The notes beneath the pieces were generated by a model. It made no database searches, was not told the origin of the DNA, and saw only the letters and a program-made list of their open reading frames with translations. Source: an uncultured Fidelibacterota bacterium (GTDB lineage: Bacteria > Fidelibacterota > Marinisomatia > Marinisomatales > TCS55). From it: a DNA stretch of 64,000 nucleotides. The stretch spans positions 1-64,000 of the forward strand of contig CAJWZD010000005.1 in the NCBI GenBank assembly GCA_913049685.1, in the 5' to 3' direction. This document shows, in pieces, positions 23,927 through 57,713 of the stretch. The translations under genes and the position numbers were made by a program. The stretch's first letter is position 1, and each line of letters opens with the position of its first letter.

Positions 23927-26851
23927 ATGTTTAAAAATTTTATATTATTGTTTTTCACTATCTTTTTAGGTTGCTCTGGAACAGGGAAAGTCTCTTCTAA
24001 TAATTCCGATTGGGCTCTAGCTACATTGAATAAACTAACCCTCCGTCAAAAAATAGCTCAAATGATGGTATTTAGGATGAATATGAAGTTTATAAACTTT
24101 GATAGTGAAGAGTGGAAAGAAATTGAAAATCTTTTGAGTAGTGACGGAATTGGTATAGTTCATATTTGGTTTGGAGAAGCTGGTAGCGCACTAACAGTTT
24201 TAAATAAAATGCAGAAGTTGTCAAATATACCTCTTTTAGTTGAAGCTGATATAGAGTCAGGTCTAGGAAGAAGATATAATGGCGCTGTAACACTTCCCCC
24301 AATGATGGCAATAGCTGCTACAGGTGATGCAAAATACGCTTACAAAGCTGGAATGATATCAGCAGAGGAGAGCCGCTCGGTTGGAATTCATTTTAACCTT
24401 GCCCCAGTTGTTGATGTAAATAATAACCCTAAAAATCCAATTATCAATACTAGATCTTTTGGCGAACATCCAGATTCAGTATATCATTATTCAAAAGAAT
24501 TTATTCGAGGTCTTAAAGATCATGGAATGTTAGCTACAGCCAAACACTTTCCAGGGCATGGTGACACAGAAACGGATTCTCACTCCGCATTGGCTCAAAT
24601 ACCAAGTGACTCATCGAGATTATGGACAATTGAACTACCACCATTTGCAAATGCCATAAAATCTGGTATTGATGCAATAATGGTTGCCCATGTCAATGCA
24701 CCTGATTATCAACAAAATGCTGATGAACCTGCAACATTATCATCCTTCTGGATAAATGATATATTAAAAGACAGCTTAGGTTTTGAAGGTGCTGTGATAA
24801 CTGACGCTATGGGAATGGGTGGCATAATCAAAAATTATTCCGATTCCTATGCTCTGATTGCAACAATTAAAGCTGGATCAGATATAATAATTCAAAATAA
24901 TAAAATGAAAGAATCTATCGACCTTGTTGAGCAAGCAGTTTTAAACAATATAATTGAAGAAAGCAGAATAGATTCATCTGTGCTAAAGATTTTAAAGATG
25001 AAGCAAAAGATTGGCTTACATCAAAATCGTTTTATAAATATAGACCAAACACATAGAACGATGGGCAAAGAGAAAAATTTTGAAATTGCGGAAGATATAG
25101 CTTCAAAATCCCTCACAGTGGTGAAAAATAATAACAATGTATTACCTCTTTCGCCAAATTTTGATGAGGAGATATATGTAATTGATTTATATGATGGACC
25201 TAATAATCACACTGAAAGCAGTCTTACAAAAAAACTTCGACAAAGTGGGCGTAAAATAAAATCTTTTCAAATCGATAAAACTGATAGCCTGGCCATAGCA
25301 AATTATATATTTGATGAAATTCCAAAAGATAGGATAGTATTTGTTAATGCTTTTGCGAATCCAGTTGAGTGGAAAGATAATATTTTCTTACCAAAAGTTG
25401 AAGCTGATCTCATCAAAAAATTGACCATGAAAACAAGCAGGTTGATTGTTACAAGTTTTGGAAGTCCATATTTAATTCAAGATTTTCCTGATACGCCTGT
25501 ATATATATGTGCATATAAAGGAAGTAGTATCATGCAGAACGCTGTTGCTGATTTTTTAATGGGTAAAAATGGTGCGAGCGGTATTCTTCCAGTTTCAATT
25601 CCTGAAATTGCCGATAGAGGAACAGGTTTAACTGTTGAGCCTATGCCTTGGAATCAAAGAGAAATAATGTCTGAACCGGCTACGGAATTAATTCGAATTC
25701 GCTCCGAAGAAATTGGCGTAAATATTAACCCGATAAAAGGTCTTCTTGAGCAAGCTGTTAGAGATACAGCTTTTCCAGGCGGAGTTATGCTTGCGGCTAA
25801 GGATGGTAATATATTTTTACATGAAGCAGTTGGATATCATACGTATTCAAAAAGAAAAGTCGTATCAAAAGGAAATATTTTTGATCTCGCATCGATAACT
25901 AAAGTTGTATCAACAACATCTGCCCTAATGAATCTTTTTGAAGAAGAAAAGTTGAATTTGGATGATAAAGTGGTTCGCTATGTTCCTGAATTCATTGGAA
26001 AGCAAAAAAAGTATTTTGAACAAAAAAGAAATACTACAATAAGGAATCTAATTACCCACACAGGAGGTCTTCCTCCATTCAAACAATACTTTAAAATGGG
26101 AGGGACTTATCAGTCTCGATTGGATTCTGTTTTTAATACTGAGCCGGTGACAGGGTTAAATGATTCAACAATCTATTCAGACATAGGTTTAATTGTTTTG
26201 GGAAAGGTGGTAGAGAGTGTGGCAAAAAAATCACTGAGTTCTTATACAGATTCTGTTATTTTTAATCCGCTTGGCATGTCCTCAACTTTTTATAATCCAC
26301 CAGCAAACAAGTTTAATAGAGTAGTCCCTACTGAGAATAGCATTTTTCATAAAAAATTGATAAAAGGTTTTGTGCATGATGAAAATGCATTCAGCTTGAA
26401 CGGAGTAGCAGGGCATGCTGGTTTATTTTCAACCGCAAAAGATTTAGCAATTTTTTCTCAAATGATGTTAAACGGTGGAAGATATGGTTGGAAAAGGATC
26501 TTGAATGAAAATACTATTAAAGAGTTTACCTCTAAATCTAACAATACTAGTGGTTCATCATATGGAATGGGTTGGGACACTCCATCAGGAAAAGCTTCAG
26601 GCGGTATTTATCTTTCAGATCAAAGTTTTGGTCATACAGGTTATACGGGAACATCAATATGGATTGATAAAGAAAACCAAATGTTTGTAATACTTTTAAC
26701 AAACGCTGTTCATCCTAATCGATCTTACAAGAAAAAAAGCTACTTTGATTGGCGACAGCGCTTACATTCATCTGTATATGAATCTATCGGGTTTAAACAG
26801 CAAAACGAAAATCTTGAGTTAAGAGAAAGATGGAAAAGAATTGAACAATAA
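23927..26851 (+). CDS. GH3 beta-N-acetylglucosaminidase fused to a serine beta-lactamase-like domain, lipoprotein
   Basis: A 974-residue lipoprotein (lipobox ending LGCSGTG, Cys16). Residues about 30-380 are a NagZ-like GH3 domain: KHFPGHGDTETDSH with the Asp-His dyad, and nucleophile Asp293 in VITDAMGMGG. Residues about 390-590 are a GH3 C-terminal-type domain. Residues about 600-960 are a class C beta-lactamase/D,D-peptidase-like domain with Ser656-x2-Lys659 (SITK), YSD in place of YxN, and HTG near the end. It probably trims extracytoplasmic murein fragments, pairing sugar and peptide hydrolysis in one polypeptide. First gene of a three-gene operon. Confidence 0.93.
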   Translation: MFKNFILLFFTIFLGCSGTGKVSSNNSDWALATLNKLTLRQKIAQMMVFRMNMKFINFDSEEWKEIENLLSSDGIGIVHIWFGEAGSALTVLNKMQKLSNIPLLVEADIESGLGRRYNGAVTLPPMMAIAATGDAKYAYKAGMISAEESRSVGIHFNLAPVVDVNNNPKNPIINTRSFGEHPDSVYHYSKEFIRGLKDHGMLATAKHFPGHGDTETDSHSALAQIPSDSSRLWTIELPPFANAIKSGIDAIMVAHVNAPDYQQNADEPATLSSFWINDILKDSLGFEGAVITDAMGMGGIIKNYSDSYALIATIKAGSDIIIQNNKMKESIDLVEQAVLNNIIEESRIDSSVLKILKMKQKIGLHQNRFINIDQTHRTMGKEKNFEIAEDIASKSLTVVKNNNNVLPLSPNFDEEIYVIDLYDGPNNHTESSLTKKLRQSGRKIKSFQIDKTDSLAIANYIFDEIPKDRIVFVNAFANPVEWKDNIFLPKVEADLIKKLTMKTSRLIVTSFGSPYLIQDFPDTPVYICAYKGSSIMQNAVADFLMGKNGASGILPVSIPEIADRGTGLTVEPMPWNQREIMSEPATELIRIRSEEIGVNINPIKGLLEQAVRDTAFPGGVMLAAKDGNIFLHEAVGYHTYSKRKVVSKGNIFDLASITKVVSTTSALMNLFEEEKLNLDDKVVRYVPEFIGKQKKYFEQKRNTTIRNLITHTGGLPPFKQYFKMGGTYQSRLDSVFNTEPVTGLNDSTIYSDIGLIVLGKVVESVAKKSLSSYTDSVIFNPLGMSSTFYNPPANKFNRVVPTENSIFHKKLIKGFVHDENAFSLNGVAGHAGLFSTAKDLAIFSQMMLNGGRYGWKRILNENTIKEFTSKSNNTSGSSYGMGWDTPSGKASGGIYLSDQSFGHTGYTGTSIWIDKENQMFVILLTNAVHPNRSYKKKSYFDWRQRLHSSVYESIGFKQQNENLELRERWKRIEQ

Positions 26852-27686
26852 GAATATTCATATAGCTCTTTATCTCACCATAATTTTAACAATAATAGGT
26901 TGCAAGTCAGATGCTAAATGGATCGAAGATCTTCCAAAGCCATGGACTTTGACTGAGAACGAATTTTCAAACATTCTTCAAAAATTTGGAGAGAGATACC
27001 CTGATTTCTATGACCGTCTAAAATATTTTTCAAAATGGCAAATCGGAAAACCCTATAAGATATTTTGCCTTGGTGAAGAGATTCAGCCAGATCCTGACCC
27101 AATTTTTAGAATGGATGTCTCAGATTGCACAGTTCATATACTTACAAGTCTAGCAAGCGTACAAAGTAATAATTGGAGCGAAGCCAAATCTAATCTTATC
27201 AAAATTCATTATAAATCCGATTCAGAAGGTAAACATGTTCCACTTTATGATAAAAGGTGGCACTTTACAACAGACCGATTACTTGACAATCCTTCTACAA
27301 AAAATATTACGGAAACACTGTTTAATCCTGACAAGATCGAGAAAATTGATCTAACATTAAATCAAAAAGAAAATGGCGATGAATTCTTGGATATAAATTG
27401 GACTAAAAAAGTTGCGGTTCATTTTATACCAAATCAAATGATTGATGCTCATTTATTGAAAAAAATCCCAAGTGTAACAGGAGTGGCCTTCGTAAAAAAG
27501 GCATATTTTAAAATGGGACTTATAATTGCGCATGAGGGAATTATCATTGACAATAAGGACATAATACATGCCTCTCAAGTGTTTGGAAAAACAGTTCAGA
27601 TGGACTTCTTAGATTATTATTTTACAGATAACAAGGCCCGTTTTGATGGTGTTGTCTTTTTTTCTTTCCATCCATTAGAAAGTTAG
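26841..27686 (+). CDS. DUF1460 N-acetylmuramoyl-L-alanine amidase-like lipoprotein
   Basis: A 281-residue lipoprotein (lipobox IIGCKS) starting with TTG inside the last 11 bp of the GH3 gene, so translation is probably coupled. The DUF1460 fold belongs to the NlpC/P60-like cysteine hydrolases. The likely nucleophile Cys is in RMDVSDCTVH (about residue 95), with later HEGI and IHAS segments supplying the catalytic His. Members cleave the MurNAc-L-Ala bond or related stem peptide bonds. Position and family agree on murein turnover outside the inner membrane. Confidence 0.86.
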   Translation: MNNKNIHIALYLTIILTIIGCKSDAKWIEDLPKPWTLTENEFSNILQKFGERYPDFYDRLKYFSKWQIGKPYKIFCLGEEIQPDPDPIFRMDVSDCTVHILTSLASVQSNNWSEAKSNLIKIHYKSDSEGKHVPLYDKRWHFTTDRLLDNPSTKNITETLFNPDKIEKIDLTLNQKENGDEFLDINWTKKVAVHFIPNQMIDAHLLKKIPSVTGVAFVKKAYFKMGLIIAHEGIIIDNKDIIHASQVFGKTVQMDFLDYYFTDNKARFDGVVFFSFHPLES

Positions 27687-27690
27687 CTTC

Positions 27691-29097
27691 TTGCATTGGA
27701 TTGACCAATTCATTGTAATTTTATTTTTAATGTCTTTTTCATTGTATGGCATTAGACAGATTAATAACAATAAATCATCTGGGGACTTTTTTTTAGGGGG
27801 TAAAAATCTTCCATGGCCTGTAGCTATGCTTTCGATAGTTGCAACTGAAACATCTGTTCTTACATTTATAAGTCTTCCGGGGTTGGCCTATAGGGGTGAG
27901 TGGTTTTTTCTGCAGTTAGCGTTTGGTTATATAATAGGTAGAGTACTTGTTAGCATTTTTCTTCTACCCGCATATTTCAAGGATGGTATAATTTCAATTT
28001 ATGAAGTTATAGGTGATAGATTTGGATTGTTTTTCCAAAAAATCGCTTCATTAATATTTCTCGTAACAAGAGTTCTAGCTGATGGTGTAAGATTTTTAGC
28101 TACAGCAGTTGTCGTGCAGGTGATAACAGGTTGGTCAATAGAGTTAGCCGTATTAGTTATAGGAGTTATTACACTACTCTACACTTTATCGGGTGGTCTA
28201 AGAACTGTAATGTGGATTGATAGTATTCAGTTTATATTGTATTTATTTGGTGGATTGATTTCAATCTTTGTTGCTCTCAGTTACTTAGATTTCAACTTTA
28301 GTAGCATAATTAGAGATTTATCAAATTCACATAAAATGAAAATTTTCAATTTCGAAGGAAATCTACTTTATGATCCGTATTACTTCTTTAGTGCAGTCTT
28401 TGGAGGAATATTTCTTTCATTTTCATCGCACGGAATTGATCATATGATGGTTCAAAGAGTTTTGAGTACTCAAAACTTAGCCTCTGCCAGAAAATCCATG
28501 ATCGCCAGCGGAGTTTTTGTTTTTATTCAGTTTGCAGTATTCTTGTTTGCCGGTTCATTAATTTTTTTAATTTCAGGCGATCTTGATATTCAAAAAGATC
28601 GTGAATTCACATACTTTATTGTTAATTATATGCCTGTAGGTGTGCGCGGAATATTGCTTGCAGGCGTTTTGTCTGCAGCAATGTCAACGCTAAGCTCATC
28701 GATAAATTCATTGGCCTCATCAACTGTAACGGATTGGTTCAAAAAAAGGAGCGATATCACATTCTCGCGATTAGTTAGTTTAGTATGGGGCATAGTTTTA
28801 ATTAGCATTGCATTATTATTTGATGAAGGTGATTCAGCCATAATAATTGTTGGTCTCCAAATTGCATCATTTACTTATGGAGCTTTGCTTGGTTTATTCT
28901 TATTAAGCAAATTTCAGCATGAATTTTTACCGATTAGCTTGATCTTTGGACTAATTTTAAGCGTTGCAACAGTATTTATCTTACAGCAAAATGAATTTGC
29001 GTGGACAACTTTTATCTTTATTTCAGTATCTGCAAATTTACTTACAACGATATCTATTGATAAAATATTTCGATTAATTTATAAGTCAAATTTTTGA
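27691..29097 (+). CDS. Sodium:solute symporter (SSS/SLC5 family), murein-locus copy
   Basis: A 468-residue, about 13-helix transporter starting with TTG, 4 bp after the amidase gene. Features: FFLGGKNLPW near the N-terminus, VATETSVLTFISLPG in helix 2, GGLRTVMWID in the middle and the SAAMSTLSSSINSLAS motif of helix 8. It is expected to import a sugar or amino-sugar with Na+. Because it ends an operon of murein hydrolases, MurNAc, GlcNAc or a disaccharide is a reasonable guess. Its last 19 bp overlap the convergent metallo-hydrolase gene. Confidence 0.92.
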   Translation: MHWIDQFIVILFLMSFSLYGIRQINNNKSSGDFFLGGKNLPWPVAMLSIVATETSVLTFISLPGLAYRGEWFFLQLAFGYIIGRVLVSIFLLPAYFKDGIISIYEVIGDRFGLFFQKIASLIFLVTRVLADGVRFLATAVVVQVITGWSIELAVLVIGVITLLYTLSGGLRTVMWIDSIQFILYLFGGLISIFVALSYLDFNFSSIIRDLSNSHKMKIFNFEGNLLYDPYYFFSAVFGGIFLSFSSHGIDHMMVQRVLSTQNLASARKSMIASGVFVFIQFAVFLFAGSLIFLISGDLDIQKDREFTYFIVNYMPVGVRGILLAGVLSAAMSTLSSSINSLASSTVTDWFKKRSDITFSRLVSLVWGIVLISIALLFDEGDSAIIIVGLQIASFTYGALLGLFLLSKFQHEFLPISLIFGLILSVATVFILQQNEFAWTTFIFISVSANLLTTISIDKIFRLIYKSNF

Positions 29098-29981
29098 AAA
29101 AGACTGGCTGATCCAAAGCCATTTTTGCTTAATTTAATTCTAAGATTGGACTTTTCGTTTAGAAGGGGGTTTGTGTGATTAAAGTGAATAAAATTAATCT
29201 CTACTTCATCTTTTATTTTTTTAAAAAATTCAGTGGATTCAACTATGAAAGGATGTGGAATTTCAGACATATCTCTTCCCGGTAATTCATTTTCATCAAA
29301 AAATGTTCCATCTAAAAGCGCATAATCATTTTTTTTAATTATCTTTAAAACGTCAACATTCCATTTTTCCCACTTATCAATATCAGGTATAAATATTAGA
29401 GATTTATTTGGGCCCCTAATTATGAAACCATGTGTCTCAGAGAATTCGTCTCGGTGAGGAACGGTAAAAGGTTTTATGGTTATTCGGCTGTTCAATATAA
29501 TTTCTTTGTCCTTTTTAAGTTGATTAATCTTTACGTTGTTCAATTTAACAAGCTGACTCCATGGAGCATTGGTAGTAATAAAATCTGACATTCTTGGTCC
29601 AAGAAATAGAGGCATATTCTTATATCCCATTGTTTCTCTTCCTAAATACATTAGTCCTGAATAATGTCCAATGTGTGCATGTGTAATAAAAATCCCTTTA
29701 ATCTCATTTTCATCAGACAATTTTTTAAGTTGACGAGGAAAGTCTGGAGTTGCTTCAATCATCCACGCCTCTTTGGTTTTGGGATCAACTATGCCAATTG
29801 AAGTTACATAGAATTCTTTCTTTGACTTTGTCCATCGATTTATACAGCAAGTCTTTTTACATCCTGCCTGAGGCGCCCCACCATCTTGTGTGGTTCCTAA
29901 AACAATAATGTGCGGATTTAAGTTTGGTTTTTTAGAGCAGTCGGTAAAAAAAAGAATAGTTAGAATAATGACTTTGTACAT
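29079..29981 (-). CDS. PqqB-like metallo-beta-lactamase-fold hydrolase, exported
   Basis: A 300-residue protein with a hydrophobic N-terminus (FFTDCSKK; a poor lipobox, so lipoprotein status is uncertain). The N-terminal GTTQDGGAPQAGC and the following Cys cluster (C41, C45, C46) resemble the structural zinc region of PqqB. The metal motif is HAHIGH at 101-106, with Gly where canonical enzymes have Asp, so the second metal site may be altered. Later VPHRDEFSETHGF and FIHFNHTNP supply further His. No PQQ genes are nearby. Last gene of the LysA/GH18/NamZ/DacB operon; substrate unknown. Confidence 0.82.
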   Translation of the reverse strand: MYKVIILTILFFTDCSKKPNLNPHIIVLGTTQDGGAPQAGCKKTCCINRWTKSKKEFYVTSIGIVDPKTKEAWMIEATPDFPRQLKKLSDENEIKGIFITHAHIGHYSGLMYLGRETMGYKNMPLFLGPRMSDFITTNAPWSQLVKLNNVKINQLKKDKEIILNSRITIKPFTVPHRDEFSETHGFIIRGPNKSLIFIPDIDKWEKWNVDVLKIIKKNDYALLDGTFFDENELPGRDMSEIPHPFIVESTEFFKKIKDEVEINFIHFNHTNPLLNEKSNLRIKLSKNGFGSASLFQKFDL

Positions 29982-29987
29982 TTGAGA

Positions 29988-31376
29988 CTAATGAGATAAT
30001 CTTGAAACAATTGTATCTTGAAGTTTTCTATAAGGAGCAGATGAGCCTTTAAAGCCATTTATTAAAATGGAAAATGCTATGGGTTCTGATCTTGAATTTA
30101 AAATATATCCTGAGAAAGTTGTTACACCAGATAATGATCCTGTTTTTGCATATACACCTTCCGGTAAATTCCTATCCTTGAGTGTTTCCTTATTATTTGT
30201 TGTGGATAAAATTTCCAGAAAATTATCTTTAATTTTTGGATTATTATATGCCCAAACCAACAAATCAGTAAAGTTGCTGGGGCTAGAATAGTTGTAGCGT
30301 GAAACTCCAGAACCATCGCTCAATGAAAATGTAGAAGTATCTATTCCAATATCATCATTTATAAAGTTTTTTATTGCGAAGAGGCCATTCTGCCAATTGC
30401 CTTGATTTTTAACAGATTCATATCCAATCATCTTTACCAATAACTCTGCAGTTAAATTGTCGCTTTCAACCATTAGATTTTCTAGTGAAGATAGAAGCGA
30501 CTTAGAGCGATGTGTGGCGATAAGCAAACCCGACCCTTTATATATCCCTTTTTTTAATTCACTGATTTGCAAACCTTTATCAATAAGCATTTGATAGAAT
30601 AAGTTCCCAGTAAACATTGTTGGATTACTAATATTCCTAACTAATGTATCGGTTGATGATGTATCCAAAATTGTTCCAGAGATTTGAAATATATTTTTTT
30701 TATTTTTCCAATCTCTTACTATTTTAATCTTATCATATTCTGAAGTATCGCTAACAGTGATTGCGGAGTTATTGATTTTATAATAGTTTGACATAGGATA
30801 TGTTTCAACACTAATAAGTGAACCTGGTGAGGACGGGCCAATAACAAAGTCAATGCAATTATCATTAACTGAAAGACCGCTTACTTCAGCAGAATACCAT
30901 TCGTCTCCTTCATCCCACATCCAACCTGGTCCATATACCAGTGAATCTGTTATAGTATCATCGAGGTAAACCCTTTTAGCTAATGGAAATTTTTTTGAAA
31001 CAATTTCTGACAGCGAATCAAGAGTTTTCACTTTCAAATCAGGATCCCCACCTCCAACAAGGAAGATTTTATCAATGTCGCCATAAACTGATGTTTTAAA
31101 AGTGAAACCTGTATCTAAAATTGATAATGCTGCGATGGCAGAATACAGTTTATTATTGCTTGCAGGATTAAATAAGGACTTGCTATTAAGCTCATAAATA
31201 GTTTCTCCTGATTTCAAAGATACCGCTTTAATTCCAATATTTGTATTTAATCCAGAATCATTTATTATTGTTGTGATAGATTGTTTTTCAACTATCTTGC
31301 CACTTGTTGTATAAATTTGTGGAGAAAAACAACCTATATAAAATATTGGCAAGCCAAGTAAAAATAGTTTATTCAT
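29988..31376 (-). CDS. dacB: D-alanyl-D-alanine carboxypeptidase/endopeptidase (PBP4, S13), lipoprotein
   Basis: A 462-residue penicillin-binding protein with lipobox FYIGCFS. All three active-site motifs are present: Ser73-x2-Lys76 (ASNNK), SDN in VESDNLTAE, and KTG in YAKTGSLSG near the C-terminus. The insertion domain between SxxK and SxN is typical of S13 enzymes. It removes terminal D-Ala and can cut D-Ala-mDAP cross-links, freeing muropeptides for the salvage enzymes nearby. It overlaps the NamZ stop by 8 bp and is followed 6 bp later by the PqqB-like gene. Confidence 0.94.
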   Translation of the reverse strand: MNKLFLLGLPIFYIGCFSPQIYTTSGKIVEKQSITTIINDSGLNTNIGIKAVSLKSGETIYELNSKSLFNPASNNKLYSAIAALSILDTGFTFKTSVYGDIDKIFLVGGGDPDLKVKTLDSLSEIVSKKFPLAKRVYLDDTITDSLVYGPGWMWDEGDEWYSAEVSGLSVNDNCIDFVIGPSSPGSLISVETYPMSNYYKINNSAITVSDTSEYDKIKIVRDWKNKKNIFQISGTILDTSSTDTLVRNISNPTMFTGNLFYQMLIDKGLQISELKKGIYKGSGLLIATHRSKSLLSSLENLMVESDNLTAELLVKMIGYESVKNQGNWQNGLFAIKNFINDDIGIDTSTFSLSDGSGVSRYNYSSPSNFTDLLVWAYNNPKIKDNFLEILSTTNNKETLKDRNLPEGVYAKTGSLSGVTTFSGYILNSRSEPIAFSILINGFKGSSAPYRKLQDTIVSRLSH

Positions 31377-32649
31377 ACAAATAATATTTTTTAGATCTGT
31401 TATTGAAAAATTTTAAAGGCTGAGAAAACTGGTTTGTGTTATTAGTAGATGCTTGAAAAGAGAATTCGGCGTTCCCCCATAATCGGTTCATTCCAGAAGT
31501 TTTAATTTTAAGATGTGTTGGATATTTTTCTTTAATTTTATCGATAACCTTCATCCCTGTTCTGACGCTATTAAATTTTTCTCGATTTGTTACTATTATC
31601 TCTGAACCGTGACATACTTGATTTTTATACTTAGGATTATTGGACATACCCTTAATTGGGGTTGGAATGAAAGTTATTGGCTTAAAAACAACGCCTGGAA
31701 GATTAAGATTATTTAGTTCTTTTGAAAGCTCTATCTTGTTAATCCATGGTGCTCCAAATTTTTTGAATGGTTTTTTTGTTCCTCTACCTTCACTAATATT
31801 AGTTGCTTCGAGCAAACACATTCCCGGATAAATAATTGCTGTATTTAGGTCTGGAATATTTGGTGAAGGCTTTACCCATGGAAGTTTAGTTTGATCGTAC
31901 CATAGATCTCTTTTCCAGCCTTTCATTTTTACGATCTCTAAATCAGGATTGCCATCTATCCATTTTTCACCATTAATCATCAAAGCAAGCTCCCCTATTG
32001 TAAGTCCGTATCTCGTTGGAATAGGATAGTAACCTACAAAAGTTTGAAATTTTAAATCGAGTATTGGCCCTTCAATTATATTGCCTTTAATGGGATTTGG
32101 GCGATCAAGGACTAAAACTTTTACTCCATATTCCGAAGCACTTTCCATTACCATACCTAGGGTTGAGATATAGGTATAAAAACGTGCGCCAATATCCTGG
32201 ATATCATAAATAATTATATCAATATCTTTCATTTGGATTTGGGTTGGTTTGCGATTGTCTCCATAAAGACTTACTACTTTAGGAAGAGTTTTAATTTGAC
32301 CGTTATAATCTACCTTTTCTCCAGCAGCGGCCTCACCAAACAATCCATGTTCTGGAGAAAAAATTACTTTAATTGAAATATCTTTAGTTTTCATTAGGCG
32401 TTCATAATTGGAAACTCCATTGTTATCTATTCCAGAATTATTCGTAACAAGCCCAATATTCTTATTTTTTATTAACTCTATTTTATCATCAAGAAGTACG
32501 TCAAGACCTAACTTCACATTTGAGAGATTTACTTTAGCTTTATCTTTTTGGTATTTATCTTGAACTTGATGAATTGATTGAGGGGGTTGAGTTTGCGTAG
32601 TACATCCGGCCAAGACCAACAAGCCTGCATAGAAAAAATTAAATCTCAT
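31369..32649 (-). CDS. namZ: Exo-beta-N-acetylmuramidase NamZ (GH171, DUF1343), lipoprotein
   Basis: A 426-residue lipoprotein (LVLAGCTTQ) of the DUF1343 family. Bacillus subtilis and Tannerella NamZ of this family release terminal MurNAc from glycan chains. Signatures include GLVTNNSG, FSPEHGLFGEAAAGE (residues about 96-110), YDIQDIGARFYTY and the VLDRPNP segment. It starts with ATG in a 4-bp overlap with the GH18 stop. NamZ and NagZ activities are complementary: together they can unravel peptide-free murein glycan from the end. Confidence 0.94.
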   Translation of the reverse strand: MRFNFFYAGLLVLAGCTTQTQPPQSIHQVQDKYQKDKAKVNLSNVKLGLDVLLDDKIELIKNKNIGLVTNNSGIDNNGVSNYERLMKTKDISIKVIFSPEHGLFGEAAAGEKVDYNGQIKTLPKVVSLYGDNRKPTQIQMKDIDIIIYDIQDIGARFYTYISTLGMVMESASEYGVKVLVLDRPNPIKGNIIEGPILDLKFQTFVGYYPIPTRYGLTIGELALMINGEKWIDGNPDLEIVKMKGWKRDLWYDQTKLPWVKPSPNIPDLNTAIIYPGMCLLEATNISEGRGTKKPFKKFGAPWINKIELSKELNNLNLPGVVFKPITFIPTPIKGMSNNPKYKNQVCHGSEIIVTNREKFNSVRTGMKVIDKIKEKYPTHLKIKTSGMNRLWGNAEFSFQASTNNTNQFSQPLKFFNNRSKKYYLYE

Positions 32650-35084
32650 TTTAACAAAGTAAATTTCTTATTAACTATCTTATCTCCTTGCGACAGGTAA
32701 ACAATGTAGACACCAGAAGGCGCCTTGCTTCCTTCTTTAGTTAAGCCATTCCAATTGAATCGCTGAATTTTAGTTGGAAGTGATTGCGTGGACATTTTAA
32801 GCACCTCTCGTCCCATGATATCTGTAATTGTTAGAAATGCAATTGGAGAAAGATCTTTTATCTCAAACTCAATTGAAATTGAGCGATTAGAAGGATTTGG
32901 GTATAATGCAGAAATACTCAATCCTTCGGGAATTGTTGGATCGCTTTCTATAACTGAAGCAATTGGTGCCTCAAGAAAATATAAAATTTCACCCATGATG
33001 TCAGTTCTAACTTTTTCTGGATAAATTGATTCAAAACCAACAGATAAATAAACAATACCTGCCGGTGTTTTGCTATTAAGGAAATTTCCTCTGAATGCTA
33101 TTCCTGCACCACCTCTAGACTCGTAGTCTACATCCCTATACTTCAAAATACTTACCGCATTGCCGTATGGTTTAATTCCGTCTGGCCAATCAACATCATA
33201 ATTTCCATGCTCTCCATTATCAAAATTAAATGAATAGCCATCAAACAGAGAATTTGACACTCCCTCTATACTGTAAGCACCACTTGTTCCTCCAGCTGCA
33301 TCACTTATATATTCTGCTTTCAGGACATTTTCATAGAATAATTTATCTGAGTTATTACCCTTTTCATACAAATCATAACCTATTTCAGACCCAGAAACAA
33401 ATAGTCGACCTCCATTTAAAATATAGTCTTGAATTAAAACTTTCTCATTGGCATCAAAAGCTGAAGTAGCCGCACCCTCCTCACCTAAAATCCAGTCAAC
33501 GATAGGGTAATCACTTAAATTTAAATTTTCATTGATTATTGCTTCATTTGAAGTCGCATTAAATGAATAACCGTTTGCATAAACTGCATTTCCATGCTCC
33601 AATATGAAGTCAAATGAATTTGATGTCCCAGCAATACGATCAAATCCGTTTACAATCAACACTTTAGAATTTGAAGGGGAGGGGGTTGCGCCAAGTAATT
33701 CAGTAAACTCACTAGAACCAAACTCATTTATTGCTCTCACTTTATAGAAATAAGGAAAATTATTATTTAATCCCTGAATCAATATAGGGCTCTTCAAAAA
33801 TTTTCCAACCGTTCGCTCCTCTGTTGAATCTGTAATCACTTCAACAACTTCAAACTCCGTGGCGGAATCGTCTTTGAAAAAGTTAAGGCTAACTGTGCCA
33901 CCACCTAAACTTGTGACTGAAAAATTTGCTGGCACAGATGGACTGGATTTCTTAGCAATTTTTTCTTTCAGTGCACCCCAAAGTTCATCATAACCCTCAT
34001 CATATCCTAAAGCCCAAATACCAATTCCACCTAAATCTTTTGAAATGATAAAATCATATTTTTTGGATAATGATAAACTGTCATCATACCAAGTTTGAAA
34101 CCAGTCTGGATTTTGGAATTTATACCATGGTGTTTGAGATGAAATATCCCACTGTTTTCCATAGGAAAGAGCCTTTGACTCAGCAATAGAAAATACTTCA
34201 GCTTTACCAGTTCCGGTTGTATTTGCACCCTTTTCTCCTGAGGACGACGGCCATGAATAGCCATAGTATGGTACACCAAGAATTATTTTATCTCTATTGC
34301 CATCAGTAACTGAGAGATATGTATTAATTGTATTCGTGATATTATAGGAACCACCTGTCAGTGGAGATACAGGGCCAGTCAACGTACTTCCTTTCCAATG
34401 ATAGTCATACCCCATAACAAAAAGCCCGTCACTTTCATTAGCGAGAGCTTTAAAATCCCATGCATTATTCCAGTCAACTGCTGGGGTAGCTAACGTAACT
34501 TGGGCGTTTGGTATTGTGAGTCGCAACGAGGAGCGCAAATCTTTTACAAAGGTAATTAAATTAAATTTTTGACTTTCTGGAAACGATTCAAAGTCAATAT
34601 TTACTCCATCCGCCCCAGCGCGATTAACTTCAAATGTTAAATTATCAATCAAGCGCCTTCGATTTGTGTTACTGCTAAGAAGCGCTTCGAGCTTATTTTT
34701 TGAAAAGAGAGTTACTGTTAAAACCACTTCAACGCCATTATCATGTGCCTTATTAATCAAATCTGTCGCAGGCCAGCCATGGAGATCGATTAATTCACCG
34801 TTCTCATTTGCTTCTGCGGAAAAATATGCTATAGTAGAAAGTAATTCAAAATTATAATTTTGCCATTTAGTCCCTTGCCAATACGGGTGATAACCAAATA
34901 CTCTTCTAAACGTATTTTTCTTGATATTATTGATCGGTTTTGCTGGTCCTGAGTATGATTTATAAAGAGGTTCGATGAAATTCTCATTATTAAATTCAAG
35001 CTCTACCTGATGAATTCCGCGGTAAGCTTGTTGACTTATTCCAAAAGACACTATTAAAAGGAATGCGAATATTTTATATATCAC
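32646..35084 (-). CDS. Secreted GH18 protein with FN3, glutamine-amidotransferase-like and T9SS sorting domains
   Basis: About 812 residues from the GTG at 35084, which gives a compact signal peptide; a TTG at 35105 would add seven residues. I numbered from that longer start. The GH18 domain (about 65-375) has the catalytic pattern D166-x4-D171-x-E173 (DGVNIDFE). FN3 (about 393-475) follows, then a ThuA/glutamine-amidotransferase-like region (about 485-705, with VDWILGEE and FVSGSEIG). The C-terminal 80 residues are a type IX secretion sorting domain (YPNPS, GREV, GVYIVYLS, KKFTLLK). Substrate may be murein or chitin-like glycan. It overlaps the 3' end of lysA. Confidence 0.9.
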   Translation of the reverse strand: MIYKIFAFLLIVSFGISQQAYRGIHQVELEFNNENFIEPLYKSYSGPAKPINNIKKNTFRRVFGYHPYWQGTKWQNYNFELLSTIAYFSAEANENGELIDLHGWPATDLINKAHDNGVEVVLTVTLFSKNKLEALLSSNTNRRRLIDNLTFEVNRAGADGVNIDFESFPESQKFNLITFVKDLRSSLRLTIPNAQVTLATPAVDWNNAWDFKALANESDGLFVMGYDYHWKGSTLTGPVSPLTGGSYNITNTINTYLSVTDGNRDKIILGVPYYGYSWPSSSGEKGANTTGTGKAEVFSIAESKALSYGKQWDISSQTPWYKFQNPDWFQTWYDDSLSLSKKYDFIISKDLGGIGIWALGYDEGYDELWGALKEKIAKKSSPSVPANFSVTSLGGGTVSLNFFKDDSATEFEVVEVITDSTEERTVGKFLKSPILIQGLNNNFPYFYKVRAINEFGSSEFTELLGATPSPSNSKVLIVNGFDRIAGTSNSFDFILEHGNAVYANGYSFNATSNEAIINENLNLSDYPIVDWILGEEGAATSAFDANEKVLIQDYILNGGRLFVSGSEIGYDLYEKGNNSDKLFYENVLKAEYISDAAGGTSGAYSIEGVSNSLFDGYSFNFDNGEHGNYDVDWPDGIKPYGNAVSILKYRDVDYESRGGAGIAFRGNFLNSKTPAGIVYLSVGFESIYPEKVRTDIMGEILYFLEAPIASVIESDPTIPEGLSISALYPNPSNRSISIEFEIKDLSPIAFLTITDIMGREVLKMSTQSLPTKIQRFNWNGLTKEGSKAPSGVYIVYLSQGDKIVNKKFTLLK

Positions 35085-36318
35085 AAAGTGAAAATATATT
35101 TTCAATTGTTTCTCGTTTTCGTATTTCTTTAAAGGAAGATTTATCTAATAAAATTTCTGCAGATCGAGGCCTAGTATTAAAGTTGTGTGACATTGAATAG
35201 CCATATGCACCAGCATCCATAATGGCAATCAGGTCATTCTCTTTCAAGGGCGGAAAAGAACGATCGGTAGCAATTCTATCAGTATTTTCACATATTTGAC
35301 CAGTGAAATCAGCAGTGATTTCATCATCACCATGATCACCGACCTTATAAATTCTGTGCTTTGCTCCGTAAAGCGCTGGGCGCATAAGGGTTTCCATGCC
35401 AGCATCTATACCTACAAAATTTTTATAACTATTTTTCAAGCCTGTAACCCTTGAAATAATAAATCCAGCATCTGCAATTATTGATTTTCCAGGCTCAAGC
35501 CATAGTGAGGGTGCTAAGGATTTATTTGAATATACAGAATAATAAATTTTAGCTAGCTTTTCAAACATTTTACTAAAATTTAAGGGAGCTTGTTCATCTT
35601 GATAAGGTATTCCAAATCCACCACCCATACTTATAAACTCAAAATTTATTTTAAGTTCAGATTCTATTCTTCTAGCATTGTCCAGTATTGCTGATAGCAC
35701 TTCCTCAAAAAATTCTTCATCTAAATTTCCCGACCCGCACATACATTGCAATCCAAAGCGCTTAATGCCAAGCTTTTTAGCACTCTTGTATGCATCAATT
35801 ATTTTTTCTGATGGTATACCAAATTTTGCATCTCTACCACCAGTAATTATCCCGGAATAGGATCCTCCTCCAAAACCTGGGTTCATTCTAAAGGAAACTC
35901 GTTCAGGAAGACCAACTTCATTAAGTCTGCTAAGTGAAGTGATATCATCAAGATTAATATTACATCCCTTAGTTAGCGCATCAATAAAATCTGATTTCGA
36001 TTCATAGTTTCCAGTGTATATACATTCGGAAGGAGAAATACCAGAGAGCTCTGCTGCATATATTTCTCCAGGGCTTGAACAATCACCCCCTATTGCCGGA
36101 AACGCTTCACGCATTGTGCGAATGAGATGGGGATTACTGTTTGACTTGATAGCGTAACAAATATGAAAATTTTCAAAGTTATTTGAAAGTGCATTACTTA
36201 GCATTGTAACATTTTCATGAATTCTTTGCCTCTCATAAATATATAGAGGTGTTCCATGTTTTTCTGTGATTTCAGAAAAAAGTTTTTTGTTTTTAATTAG
36301 TTCTCTTAGTGGGTGCAT
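35074..36318 (-). CDS. lysA: Diaminopimelate decarboxylase
   Basis: A 414-residue fold-type III PLP enzyme. PLP-binding Lys58 lies in YAIKSNSNP, the glycine loop is GGGFGIPY, and EPGKSIIADAG, CENTD and DAGAYGYSMSHNFNTRPR are also present. It converts meso-diaminopimelate to L-lysine. The CGSGN turn replaces the usual HIGS-type turn. It is the first gene of the minus-strand operon leading into murein hydrolases. It could therefore serve lysine synthesis, or disposal of diaminopimelate recovered from stem peptides. Confidence 0.94.
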   Translation of the reverse strand: MHPLRELIKNKKLFSEITEKHGTPLYIYERQRIHENVTMLSNALSNNFENFHICYAIKSNSNPHLIRTMREAFPAIGGDCSSPGEIYAAELSGISPSECIYTGNYESKSDFIDALTKGCNINLDDITSLSRLNEVGLPERVSFRMNPGFGGGSYSGIITGGRDAKFGIPSEKIIDAYKSAKKLGIKRFGLQCMCGSGNLDEEFFEEVLSAILDNARRIESELKINFEFISMGGGFGIPYQDEQAPLNFSKMFEKLAKIYYSVYSNKSLAPSLWLEPGKSIIADAGFIISRVTGLKNSYKNFVGIDAGMETLMRPALYGAKHRIYKVGDHGDDEITADFTGQICENTDRIATDRSFPPLKENDLIAIMDAGAYGYSMSHNFNTRPRSAEILLDKSSFKEIRKRETIENIFSLCDI

Positions 36319-51171: not shown

Positions 51172-51393
51172 ATGAAAGATTTTAGTAAATGGCTTATCGC
51201 TTTTGGTGTGGTTGCCATTACCATAGGTTTTGTTTTGAATGTTTTTGCAGATAAATTAGGTTGGTTGGGTAAGTTGCCTGGAGACATAAGTCTTGGATCA
51301 AAAAATGTTAGATTTTACTTTCCTTTTGCATCCTTGGTTTTATTAAATTTGATAATCTATTTAGTTATGAGGGTTATTAATTGGTTAAAATAA
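51172..51393 (+). CDS. DUF2905 small membrane protein
   Basis: A 73-residue protein with two membrane helices and the family motif WLGKLPGDI between them. It matches DUF2905 (PF11146); the function is unknown. It lies 10 bp after the nucleotidyltransferase and overlaps the next gene by 13 bp. Confidence 0.92.
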   Translation: MKDFSKWLIAFGVVAITIGFVLNVFADKLGWLGKLPGDISLGSKNVRFYFPFASLVLLNLIIYLVMRVINWLK

Positions 51394-51662
51394 ATACAGC
51401 CATACTTTTTTTATCAATTCTTCTATTTTCTTGTGATGATGCTAAAAATGATGAAACCACATTTGAAATGTTAAAAAATGATATGCTATCAAGGTCTGGA
51501 GTTCTGTGTGAACTTAAACCAGACACAGGGCCATGTAGAGCGTATATGCCCCGATATTATTTTGATCAAAAGGCTCAAAAATGCAAGGAATTCATATGGG
51601 GCGGCTGTAGTGGAACAGTGCCGTTTGAGACGATGGGCGAATGCATGAATGCCTGCGAATAA
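51381..51662 (+). CDS. Kunitz/BPTI-domain lipoprotein
   Basis: A 93-residue lipoprotein beginning with TTG, lipobox LLFSC (Cys18), then a linker and a complete Kunitz domain (43-92). The six cysteines (43, 52, 68, 76, 88, 92) follow C-x8-C-x15-C-x7-C-x11-C-x3-C, one residue shorter than BPTI in the fifth interval. The binding loop GPCRA puts Arg53 at P1, which predicts trypsin-like targets, and PRYYF is the classic follow-up. Kunitz inhibitors are mostly animal proteins and uncommon in bacteria. Its role could be protection against trypsin-like proteases of an animal or protist, or control of its own peptidases. Confidence 0.93.
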   Translation: MVKINTAILFLSILLFSCDDAKNDETTFEMLKNDMLSRSGVLCELKPDTGPCRAYMPRYYFDQKAQKCKEFIWGGCSGTVPFETMGECMNACE

Positions 51663-52515
51663 GTACCCCCTGATTTTAGACGGCGCTCTTGGAACAGAGT
51701 TGATGCGTAGAGGATTAAAACTTCCATTACCCCTTTGGTCTGCAGAAGCAAATATTACACATCAAAAAGATGTTATTTCTGTACATAAAGATTATGTAAA
51801 AGCAGGCGCTGATATTATAACTACTAACACATTTAGATCTACAACATGGACATATAAACGCGCAGGTTTTTCCAACAAGAGAGCTACAGAAAGAGCTAAA
51901 TATAGCCTTATGAAAGCTATTGAATCTGCATATCAATCAAACCCATCAATTATTGCAGGTTCAATTACATCAATTGAAGACTGCTATCAGCCAAGCCTAT
52001 TCCCTGGAAAATCTGTTGCAGAGGATAGCATGGGAGAAACACTATCTTGGTTCAAAGAAGCTGGAATTAAAATAATATTATTTGAAACGATGGGTCATTT
52101 AGAAGAAATTAAAATTGCAGTAAGAATGGCAGTAGATTTTAAAACAAAATGGCTTAGCATTATTTTAAAGAATGACAGTAGGCTCCTATCGGGTCATAAT
52201 CTTGATGACGTATTTAAATTTTCAAAAAGTGAAGTTGACTGTTTGCTAATGAATTGCAATTCATTTGAAAAAACAAATGCATCTCTACCTAATTTTTTAA
52301 ATCAATGGGAATCCGATTGGGGTGTCTATCCTAATCTTGGAATTACAGAACCAGAACCAGATGGTACAATGGATTTAAAGATAAGCGACAAATTATTTTC
52401 TGAAAATATAGATAATTATATTAAAAAGATACCTTTCATAATTGGGTCATGCTGTGGATCAAGTCCAATTCATACAGCTATGATTAAAAAACATGTTCAA
52501 AAATATTCTAACTAG
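51649..52515 (+). CDS. Homocysteine S-methyltransferase family protein
   Basis: A 288-residue TIM-barrel protein. Zinc-binding Cys residues are in LLMNCNS and GSCCGSSP, and the start LDGALGTELMRRGL is characteristic. The family transfers a methyl group from S-methylmethionine or similar donors to homocysteine. It lacks the B12 and folate domains of MetH. The ATG overlaps the last 14 bp of the Kunitz gene. It ends the plus-strand operon, and a hairpin terminator follows. Confidence 0.92.
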   Translation: MPANKYPLILDGALGTELMRRGLKLPLPLWSAEANITHQKDVISVHKDYVKAGADIITTNTFRSTTWTYKRAGFSNKRATERAKYSLMKAIESAYQSNPSIIAGSITSIEDCYQPSLFPGKSVAEDSMGETLSWFKEAGIKIILFETMGHLEEIKIAVRMAVDFKTKWLSIILKNDSRLLSGHNLDDVFKFSKSEVDCLLMNCNSFEKTNASLPNFLNQWESDWGVYPNLGITEPEPDGTMDLKISDKLFSENIDNYIKKIPFIIGSCCGSSPIHTAMIKKHVQKYSN

Positions 52516-56432: not shown

Positions 56433-57713
56433 ATGGAAGATAAAATTAAAAGTATTATAACGTGTGATTTAGATGGAAAGGTTGAAACTTTTTCAGAAGG
56501 CGCAGAAAAATTATTTGGCTATACTAAAGATGAAGTTATCGGCAAAAAACGCGTCAGTGATTTTAGTCCAGGTGAGATTGTTTTAGGGCATGTAGTTAAT
56601 TGGCTTAAGATAGCAGTTGATAAAGGTGAGTGGGAAGGTGAAACTGTTTTTATTGGTAAGGATAAAAATGAAATTCCCAGCAAAATTAAAATAACTCCAA
56701 CAAAAGGTAAAAGCGGTGAGCATATTGGTTATTGCGGTGTTACGACGCCTCTTGCAGATAAAACAGCTGATGAAGTGCGACCTAAAATTAGCTTCTTCAC
56801 CAAAGTATTTAAATGGATGGTGATAATGAGATTGCCTTTTTTAAGTGCAACCTTTGTTCCAATTTTTGCAGGCGCAGCAGTCACTTCAATGCTTGGTGAA
56901 CCTGTAAGTTGGAGCTGGCTCGGTTTGACTTTATTGGGTGGTGCTTTTTTACATATTGGCACAAATACTTCTAATGATTATTTCGATCATAGAAGTGGAA
57001 CCGATGCTATAAATTATAATTACAGCAATGAAGGTTTAAATGGTGGAAGTAGAAGTATTCAAATGGGTTTAATTACTCCCAAGGGAATGCTTATTCTTGC
57101 AATTATAACTTTTGCTATGAGTGCCGTAGTGGGTGTTCCATTAATTATGAAATCTGGACTGCAAATACTTTGGCTGGGTTTGATTGGGTTTTTCTCAGGT
57201 CTATTTTATACTGCCCCTCCTTTTAAATTTTCTTCACGAAGAGGTATGGGTGAATTTTTGATTGGTTTGAATTTTGGACCCCTTATGGTTGCTGGAAGCG
57301 CCCTTGTCCAAACAGGAAGATTGATTCCTGAAGCATTTTTAGCAGGAATACCTATAGGACTCTTGATCGCTGCTGTTGTGTATATGAATGAATTTCCAGA
57401 TCATGAAAGCGATAAAGCTACAGGTAAGAACACACTTATTGTAGTTTTTGGGCCTGAGAGAGCACGCGCAGGTTATGTAGCTTTAATTGCCTCTGCGTTT
57501 GTTAGTATTGTTATAATGGCACTTAATGGAACACTACCTATGCTGTCTTTGATTGCACTATTAGCGGTTTACTTTGGATATACAGCTACCAAGACACTTT
57601 ACAAGTATTATAATAATAGACTACTCCAACCTGCGAATTGGGGCACTATAATTATGCATAGCGTAACCGGTATTCTGCTTACAATTGGTATTTGGTTGGG
57701 AAATAGTCTCTAA
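56433..57713 (+). CDS. PAS domain fused to a UbiA prenyltransferase (MenA-like)
   Basis: A 426-residue fusion. Residues about 1-112 are a PAS domain (CDLDGKVETFSEGAEKLFGY, KTNEIP-type segments and a PAC-like tail). Residues about 120-426 are a UbiA membrane prenyltransferase with about eight or nine helices. The first Asp-rich motif is NDYFD (181-185) and a second is EFPDHESDKATGK (about 320-332). The GSRSIQMG loop after the first motif resembles 1,4-dihydroxy-2-naphthoate prenyltransferases of menaquinone synthesis. A sensing PAS on a prenyltransferase is rare. It starts 86 bp after the DUF4340 gene with GCGCGGG-rich sequence upstream and no nearby partner. Confidence 0.88.
   Translation: MEDKIKSIITCDLDGKVETFSEGAEKLFGYTKDEVIGKKRVSDFSPGEIVLGHVVNWLKIAVDKGEWEGETVFIGKDKNEIPSKIKITPTKGKSGEHIGYCGVTTPLADKTADEVRPKISFFTKVFKWMVIMRLPFLSATFVPIFAGAAVTSMLGEPVSWSWLGLTLLGGAFLHIGTNTSNDYFDHRSGTDAINYNYSNEGLNGGSRSIQMGLITPKGMLILAIITFAMSAVVGVPLIMKSGLQILWLGLIGFFSGLFYTAPPFKFSSRRGMGEFLIGLNFGPLMVAGSALVQTGRLIPEAFLAGIPIGLLIAAVVYMNEFPDHESDKATGKNTLIVVFGPERARAGYVALIASAFVSIVIMALNGTLPMLSLIALLAVYFGYTATKTLYKYYNNRLLQPANWGTIIMHSVTGILLTIGIWLGNSL

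Follow-up and report, generated by a model that had tools for sequence, protein, structure and literature searches.

A Kunitz-domain lipoprotein of a bacterial subfamily in an uncultured Fidelibacterota bacterium: a candidate cell-surface protease inhibitor

Introduction

The window analyzed here, a stretch of 64,000 nucleotides from an uncultured Fidelibacterota bacterium, harbors a gene for a small predicted lipoprotein that, judged from its sequence, has a true Kunitz domain with arginine at the P1 position. On the alignments and trees described below, this domain is a member of a bacterial Kunitz subfamily that is marked by the loss of Asn43 and by Trp35 and Pro44 (BPTI numbering), and that is kept vertically in its own bacterial family. 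As to function, we lean slightly towards a lipid-anchored Kunitz serine protease inhibitor, which would act at the cell surface to blunt trypsin-like proteases from predators, competitors or the environment. Research on Kunitz inhibitors has dealt almost wholly with animals. If bacteria keep a conserved branch of their own, with a distinct structural signature, a lipid anchor and a rapidly switching P1, this would suggest that antiprotease evolution like that of venoms and parasites also occurs in bacteria. A search of the open-access literature yielded, beyond PMC11511053, nothing useful on bacterial Kunitz evolution or experiment.

The Gene and Its Product

The gene, its parts and its two partners are listed in Table 1. 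On re-reading of the sequence, the coordinates, frame, signal peptide with lipobox and domain were as the initial annotation had described them. The translated protein is LVKINTAILFLSILLFSC18DDAKNDETTFEMLKNDMLSRSGVLC43ELKPDTGPC52R53AYMPRYYFDQKAQKC68KEFIWGGC76SGTVPFETMGEC88MNAC92E, with Arg53 directly after Cys52. Its start, TTG GTT AAA with an upstream GAGG, is also found in two congeners (G002 and G003), and a relative (G036) has ATG at the same place. In the part encoding the domain, dN is about 0.10-0.13 and dS is saturated, which indicates purifying selection. No family was found in NCBIfam for the protein.

Table 1. Features of the Kunitz lipoprotein locus, in positions of the window
Feature	Position	Strand	Basis and remarks
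DUF2905 small membrane protein, upstream partner	51172..51393	+	PF11146, 62.3 bits; overlaps Kunitz gene by 13 nt
Shine-Dalgarno-like GAGGG	51369..51373	+	7 nt 5' of TTG; GAGG kept in G002 and G003
Kunitz-domain lipoprotein gene	51381..51662	+	ORF, 93 aa, TTG start, TAA stop; PF00014, 59.8 bits
Predicted lipoprotein signal peptide, ending in lipobox L-F-S-Cys18	51381..51434	+	Translation; Cys18 invariant in 14 aligned homologues
Acid-rich tether DDAKNDETTF..., 24 residues	51435..51506	+	Translation; model helix 25-39, moderate confidence
Kunitz/BPTI domain, residues 43-92, six Cys	51507..51656	+	Pfam 43-93; Foldseek to TFPI, APP, BPTI
P1 residue Arg53 (AGA)	51537..51539	+	Aligns with BPTI Lys15; within GPCRAYMPRYYF
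Val80-Pro81, one-residue deletion site (BPTI Asn43 missing)	51618..51623	+	Common to the bacterial family
Homocysteine S-methyltransferase, downstream partner	51649..52515	+	PF02574, 155 bits; overlaps Kunitz gene by 14 nt

The lipobox, LLFSC18, was judged by eye and has Phe, a less usual residue, at -2. The invariance of Cys18 among the homologues is in keeping with the predicted anchoring to a membrane, as first proposed in the initial annotation. Which side of which membrane the protein faces is a separate matter. In Escherichia coli, an Asp at +2 after the lipobox Cys directs retention in the inner membrane; under this rule the window protein, which has Asp at this position, would be retained there, so that its exposure at the surface is tentative. 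The residues that follow Cys18 (C-DDAKND) are acid-rich and differ from the surface-export (LES) consensus, K-(D/E)2 or of the S-D-D type, which is defined for Bacteroidota only. In that group, acidic residues follow the lipid-bearing Cys in many surface lipoproteins, and the Flagellimonas homologues of the window protein begin C-SDDDNE, close to SDDFE, the surface-export consensus of F. johnsoniae lipoproteins (PMC5080379).

Domain Identity and Predicted Fold

The Pfam Kunitz profile, PF00014, matches residues 43-93 with 59.8 bits (E 3e-16) against a cut-off of 21, and a phmmer search of the PDB returned 111 distinct sequences at E<=0.001, the best of them SmCI at 4.4e-30; the match of the predicted protein is far beyond chance. 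The six cysteines (C43, C52, C68, C76, C88 and C92) are spaced 8/15/7/11/3 and align with residues 5, 14, 30, 38, 51 and 55 of BPTI, giving the 1-6, 2-4, 3-5 frame of predicted disulfides. An AlphaFold model, made with 14 homologues as input, has a pLDDT of about 87-94 over the domain. Foldseek places this predicted model within 1.3-1.8 A rmsd of TFPI K1, TFPI-2 K1 (in a trypsin complex), APPI and BPTI, the values for TFPI, APP and BPTI being 1.3-1.6 A, with a probability of 1.00 and a TM-score of up to 0.85 depending on the target; the structure-based alignments give an identity to animal domains of about 35-48%. The Kunitz fold therefore survived the structure prediction, in which an unrelated Cys-rich fold was the other outcome to be considered.

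The inhibitor loop is complete, with G12, C14, a basic P1, A16 and G36-G37 present in the window protein as G-P-C-R53-A and G74-G75. A complete Kunitz domain with Arg53 at P1, as originally annotated, is thus borne out by the profile match and by the alignment to BPTI. The cysteine spacing was also said to match that of animal inhibitors almost exactly. The spacing itself was confirmed, but between Cys4 and Cys5 the animal domains have 12 residues where the window domain has 11, a genuine and diagnostic loss of one residue. Only five residues lie between C76 and F82, so that the canonical Cys38-x6-[FY]45 spacing with a buried Asn43, which we take to be part of the PROSITE PS00280 pattern also, is absent. 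The Pfam definition does not require this feature, and the window domain, in which Asn43 is missing, is hence filed as a variant subfamily.

Gene Neighborhood

The Kunitz gene sits in a cassette with the DUF2905 and methyltransferase genes, flanked by sugar-phosphate and ABC-transport genes. It lies directly upstream of the orthologous methyltransferase in all 11 genomes, from two genera, in which both were found, and its linkage to DUF2905 is seen in G002, G003, G036, G017 and G029. G003 and G002 preserve the wider arrangement, which runs GH109, symporter, GHMP kinase, nucleotidyltransferase, DUF2905, Kunitz, methyltransferase and ABC genes; G036 has it too, with extra genes inserted, and in G017 the part from DUF2905 to the ABC genes is kept. 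In G011, from another genus of the family, DUF2905 adjoins the methyltransferase with no Kunitz gene between them, and three members of genus g7 (G033, G035 and G116) have the methyltransferase without a Kunitz gene upstream. A locus that is kept in related genomes, with patchy loss or gain, indicates that the Kunitz gene is native to the lineage, neither a contaminant nor a recent arrival.

The idea that a eukaryotic contig had strayed into the assembly might appeal to the state of the source genome, a 1.63 Mb draft that is 79% complete and in 52 contigs. It is refuted by synteny and has a practically negligible probability, given that both ends of the gene overlap with bacterial genes, that it encodes a bacterial lipobox and that four other genomes have the same neighborhood.

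The initial annotation had placed the gene in an operon that may digest animal-type protein. Upstream there are indeed a proline racemase/hydroxyproline-dehydratase-like gene and an aminopeptidase P gene, both also retained in G003. Across the two genera, however, it is DUF2905 and the homocysteine S-methyltransferase that remain linked to the Kunitz gene, and the protein-digesting operon is rejected on this ground. No protease gene was found in the conserved cassette. Elsewhere in the window, a single ORF (56433-57713) has a seemingly unusual combination of an N-terminal PAS domain with a UbiA prenyltransferase, and 26841-35105 encodes a GH18-type glycosidase, a NamZ muramidase, an S13 carboxypeptidase, an AmiA-like amidase and transporters, a set that suggests peptidoglycan scavenging or recycling.

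A Bacterial Kunitz Subfamily

Between Cys4 and Cys5, the 46 bacterial domains collected from three phyla have 11 residues (39 domains) or 10 (seven domains) and never 12, the number found in all 12 animal domains compared. The extraction pattern admitted 9 to 13 residues at this place, so a spacing of 12 was not excluded by design. The listed PDB chains are likewise longer than the bacterial profile, by one residue or more, and the alignments shown place the additional residue at the same spot. Asn43 is missing from all 30 bacterial domains of the lipoprotein type and is Asn in 12/12 animal domains. The same 30 domains invariably have Pro at positions 44 and 9, and 28 of them have Trp at position 35, where the animal domains have Tyr (12/12).

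With the columns of P1 and of the deletion taken out, an unrooted tree on 49 columns splits 44 bacterial domains from the animal ones with a support of 98/94, the animal side being a small sample of 12 sequences, namely BPTI, APP and 10 others taken from PDB matches. Two divergent Bacteroidota domains, L046 and L047, join the animals on long branches. When they are left out of an animal clade that is enforced, the constrained tree is not rejected (p-AU 0.32); these two facts leave the placement of the pair unsure.

These data bear directly on horizontal transfer, which the initial annotation had put forward together with checks of phylogeny and base composition. Recent transfer from an animal host or prey draws on the fact that animals are the best-known source of the domain, and on the identity to animal domains given above. 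We regard it as very improbable, and as largely refuted: four related genomes (G002, G003, G036 and G017) retain the locus, the shared deletion and Pro44 signature occurs in 0/12 animal domains, the 44 bacterial rows form their own group and do not nest within the animals, and the gene, with 37.6% GC where the window averages 34.6%, does not stand out in base composition. An ancient transfer, one way or the other, may have taken place.

A Helicobacteraceae MAG has a Kunitz lipoprotein (L022:6001-6234) whose loop, RAYMPRYYFD, is identical to that of the window gene and unlike that of the window's congeners, RAAIPR(Y/F)YFD. The two loops may have converged on a single target, or there may have been a transfer from one phylum to another.

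Distribution and Habitat

The survey of distribution covered three phyla, namely that of the window, that of Flagellimonas and that of the Helicobacteraceae MAG. Kunitz domains were found in 32/245 genomes of the window's own phylum, including 4/5 of its genus and 8/13 of genus g7. In the other two phyla they occur in 6/395 and 2/249 sampled genomes, respectively, and the early statement that the domain is uncommon in bacteria therefore holds for these two. No Kunitz relatives were found by tblastn on plasmids or in phages, and none in viral contigs. The window's own genome has a second Kunitz lipoprotein at another locus (L002:1357-1662, on G000:C28), with Met at P1. It adjoins a gene for a periplasmic cobalamin/iron-type binding protein, and such a gene is also near the Kunitz copy of G003 (L018). 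One Bacteroidota Kunitz gene (L048, in G394) is apparently split by a frameshift, and is either a pseudogene or the product of a sequencing error.

With respect to habitat, an exact target of the SAR406-97 probe, with the probe sequence as we assume it to be, is present in the 16S of one congener, G004, and in that of 4/5 other relatives examined. From this we infer an assignment to the Neomarinimicrobiota (SAR406) and, with it, a marine habitat; the bacterium is probably marine.

Turnover of the P1 Residue

The P1 residue varies widely among the 46 bacterial domains, being Asp in 12, Glu in 11, Lys in 8, Arg in 4, Gln in 3, Leu in 3, Met in 2, Phe in 2 and Asn in 1. As half of the set (23/46) is acidic at this position, the Kunitz fold alone is no guarantee of trypsin inhibition. 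Among the 33 domains of the bacterial group without an extra Cys pair, the tree calls for at least 16 P1 changes, and 10 changes are needed between the basic, acidic and other classes. The entropy of P1 is the third highest of 51 positions, though the residue stands between an invariant Cys and an Ala that is kept in 29/30 domains. Raised variability across all of the protease-contact positions was considered and rejected (1.71 vs 1.28 bits for the rest, permutation p 0.11, not significant); we thus claim hypervariability for P1 only. In one genome (G026, L094:4984-5509), tandem Kunitz lipoproteins have Lys and Glu at P1 through one A to G change in an otherwise identical stretch, and the last 63 nt of their coding sequences are identical, which suggests gene conversion with the P1 difference kept. 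In G043 and G111, too, Lys and Glu copies occur as a tandem pair, which falls on a different branch of the tree.

The same phylum contains a clade of Kunitz domains that have two additional cysteines, at BPTI positions 18 and 37 (GPCDGICP...GCC), a pair not seen in the animal domains compared. P1 is acidic, Asp or Glu, in 11/11 of these domains, most of which stand at the C-terminus of large proteins (L096:3410-8706 on G181:C146, L030-L034 and L036-L039), often after dockerin-type repeats. In G181, three such genes lie in a row. The genomes G177, G178 and G181, all of which carry extra-Cys Kunitz proteins, also have strong matches to S1A-like trypsins (L080, L081 and L082, E 1.7e-37 to 2e-60), whereas trypsin matches elsewhere reach only the HtrA-type level; an enzyme-inhibitor link in these three genomes is possible.

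Variation of this kind could also mean that the domain inhibits nothing, and serves as a stable disulfide-locked knob that binds a protein or ligand or has a structural role in the envelope, with a P1 that drifts unused. The acidic P1 residues, which extend to the whole of the extra-Cys clade with its occasional dockerin-type repeats, accord with such a scaffold, as does the unremarkable variability of the contact positions as a set; among animals, too, many Kunitz proteins are non-inhibitory. We nonetheless hold a scaffold to be rather unlikely. The window gene and two congeners all have Arg at P1, with G12, A16, G36 and G37 intact, and the retention of Ala at P1' in 29/30 domains while P1 varies is the pattern of a reactive site and not of free drift.

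A Candidate Surface Inhibitor

The preferred reading, a lipid-anchored inhibitor of trypsin-like proteases, can be set out as a series of steps. Cys18 would be lipidated, and the short acid-rich tether would keep the Kunitz domain at a distance from a membrane of the envelope, with the outer membrane as the likeliest. By homology, the loop GPCR53AYMP would bind like a substrate in the active site of a trypsin-like S1 protease. Arg53 would occupy the S1 pocket, and the loop would be kept from being cut through by the three predicted disulfides, as in the standard mechanism. The likely purpose would be to blunt proteases released by predators or competitors, or present in the environment. Arg53 with Tyr at P2' resembles the loops of TFPI domain 2 and KABP1, and by this analogy the window domain should inhibit trypsin-like enzymes. 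Among the Kunitz peptides reported from Acinetobacter baumannii, those with Arg at P1, KABP1 included, inhibited factors Xa and XIa with nM Ki, and those with P1 Leu inhibited elastase (PMC11511053). Proteases of the trypsin type are prominent in seawater (PMC5641328), and would be a plausible target for a pelagic bacterium.

The inhibitor might instead act at home, by restraining a serine protease of the cell's own envelope such as HtrA/Do. Bacteria with inhibitors of their own proteases exist, and the genome has two trypsin-fold matches, the better of which (on C12, in a frame of about 500 aa) looks HtrA/Do-like; a serpin was looked for in this genome and none was found. Such self-control appears distinctly improbable. 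PF00089 matches are near universal in the phylum (236/245 genomes) and Kunitz domains occur in only 32, so there is no specific link between the Kunitz proteins and the cell's own trypsins; the conserved cassette contains no protease, and the turnover of P1 would be odd against a conserved partner.

More broadly, and more tentatively than for the window protein itself, the bacterial domains may represent an ancient Kunitz antiprotease family of several phyla. Its members would be inhibitors tethered by lipid at the cell surface, whose target switches through single-codon changes at P1, with Lys and Glu pairs that arise in tandem, and they would include acidic-P1 forms directed against glutamyl- or aspartyl-specific proteases. 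We know of no characterized Kunitz inhibitor that targets proteases of these specificities, and the bacterial set would offer a compact natural series on P1 Glu or Asp in the Kunitz fold. If true, such a family would point to marine bacteria and their neighbors being engaged in an antiprotease arms race.

Comparison with Known Systems

The window domain shares with the animal Kunitz/BPTI inhibitors (PF00014, MEROPS I2: TFPI, SmCI, boophilin, APP-KPI and BPTI) the six-Cys frame and predicted fold, the GPC-P1-A reactive loop, F33, G36-G37 and the C-terminal helix. It differs from them in having one residue fewer between Cys4 and Cys5, where Asn43 is absent, in the replacement of Tyr35 by Trp and of Asn44 by Pro, in a conserved Pro9, and in being a single domain on a bacterial lipid anchor. 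The extra-Cys domains fall in the same bacterial group of the tree and have the same or a shorter spacing, but they have Asp or Glu at P1 and the added cysteines 18 and 37, and mostly belong to much larger proteins.

The Kunitz proteins of Flagellimonas, Croceitalea and the Helicobacteraceae MAG (L020, L021, L023 and L022) are of the same subfamily as the window domain, with the same 11-residue spacing, but come from other phyla and stand in other neighborhoods; the Flavobacteriaceae copies, unlike the window protein, end in C-x2-C and have Leu or Phe at P1. Kunitz domains have also been reported from Acinetobacter baumannii F6W77, as KABP1-5 (PMC11511053), which we set beside the window protein by their reported description. 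KABP1, with the loop GLCRGYFP, has Arg at P1 and Tyr at P2', as in the window domain, whereas the five KABP domains are arranged in tandem in a soluble secreted protein.
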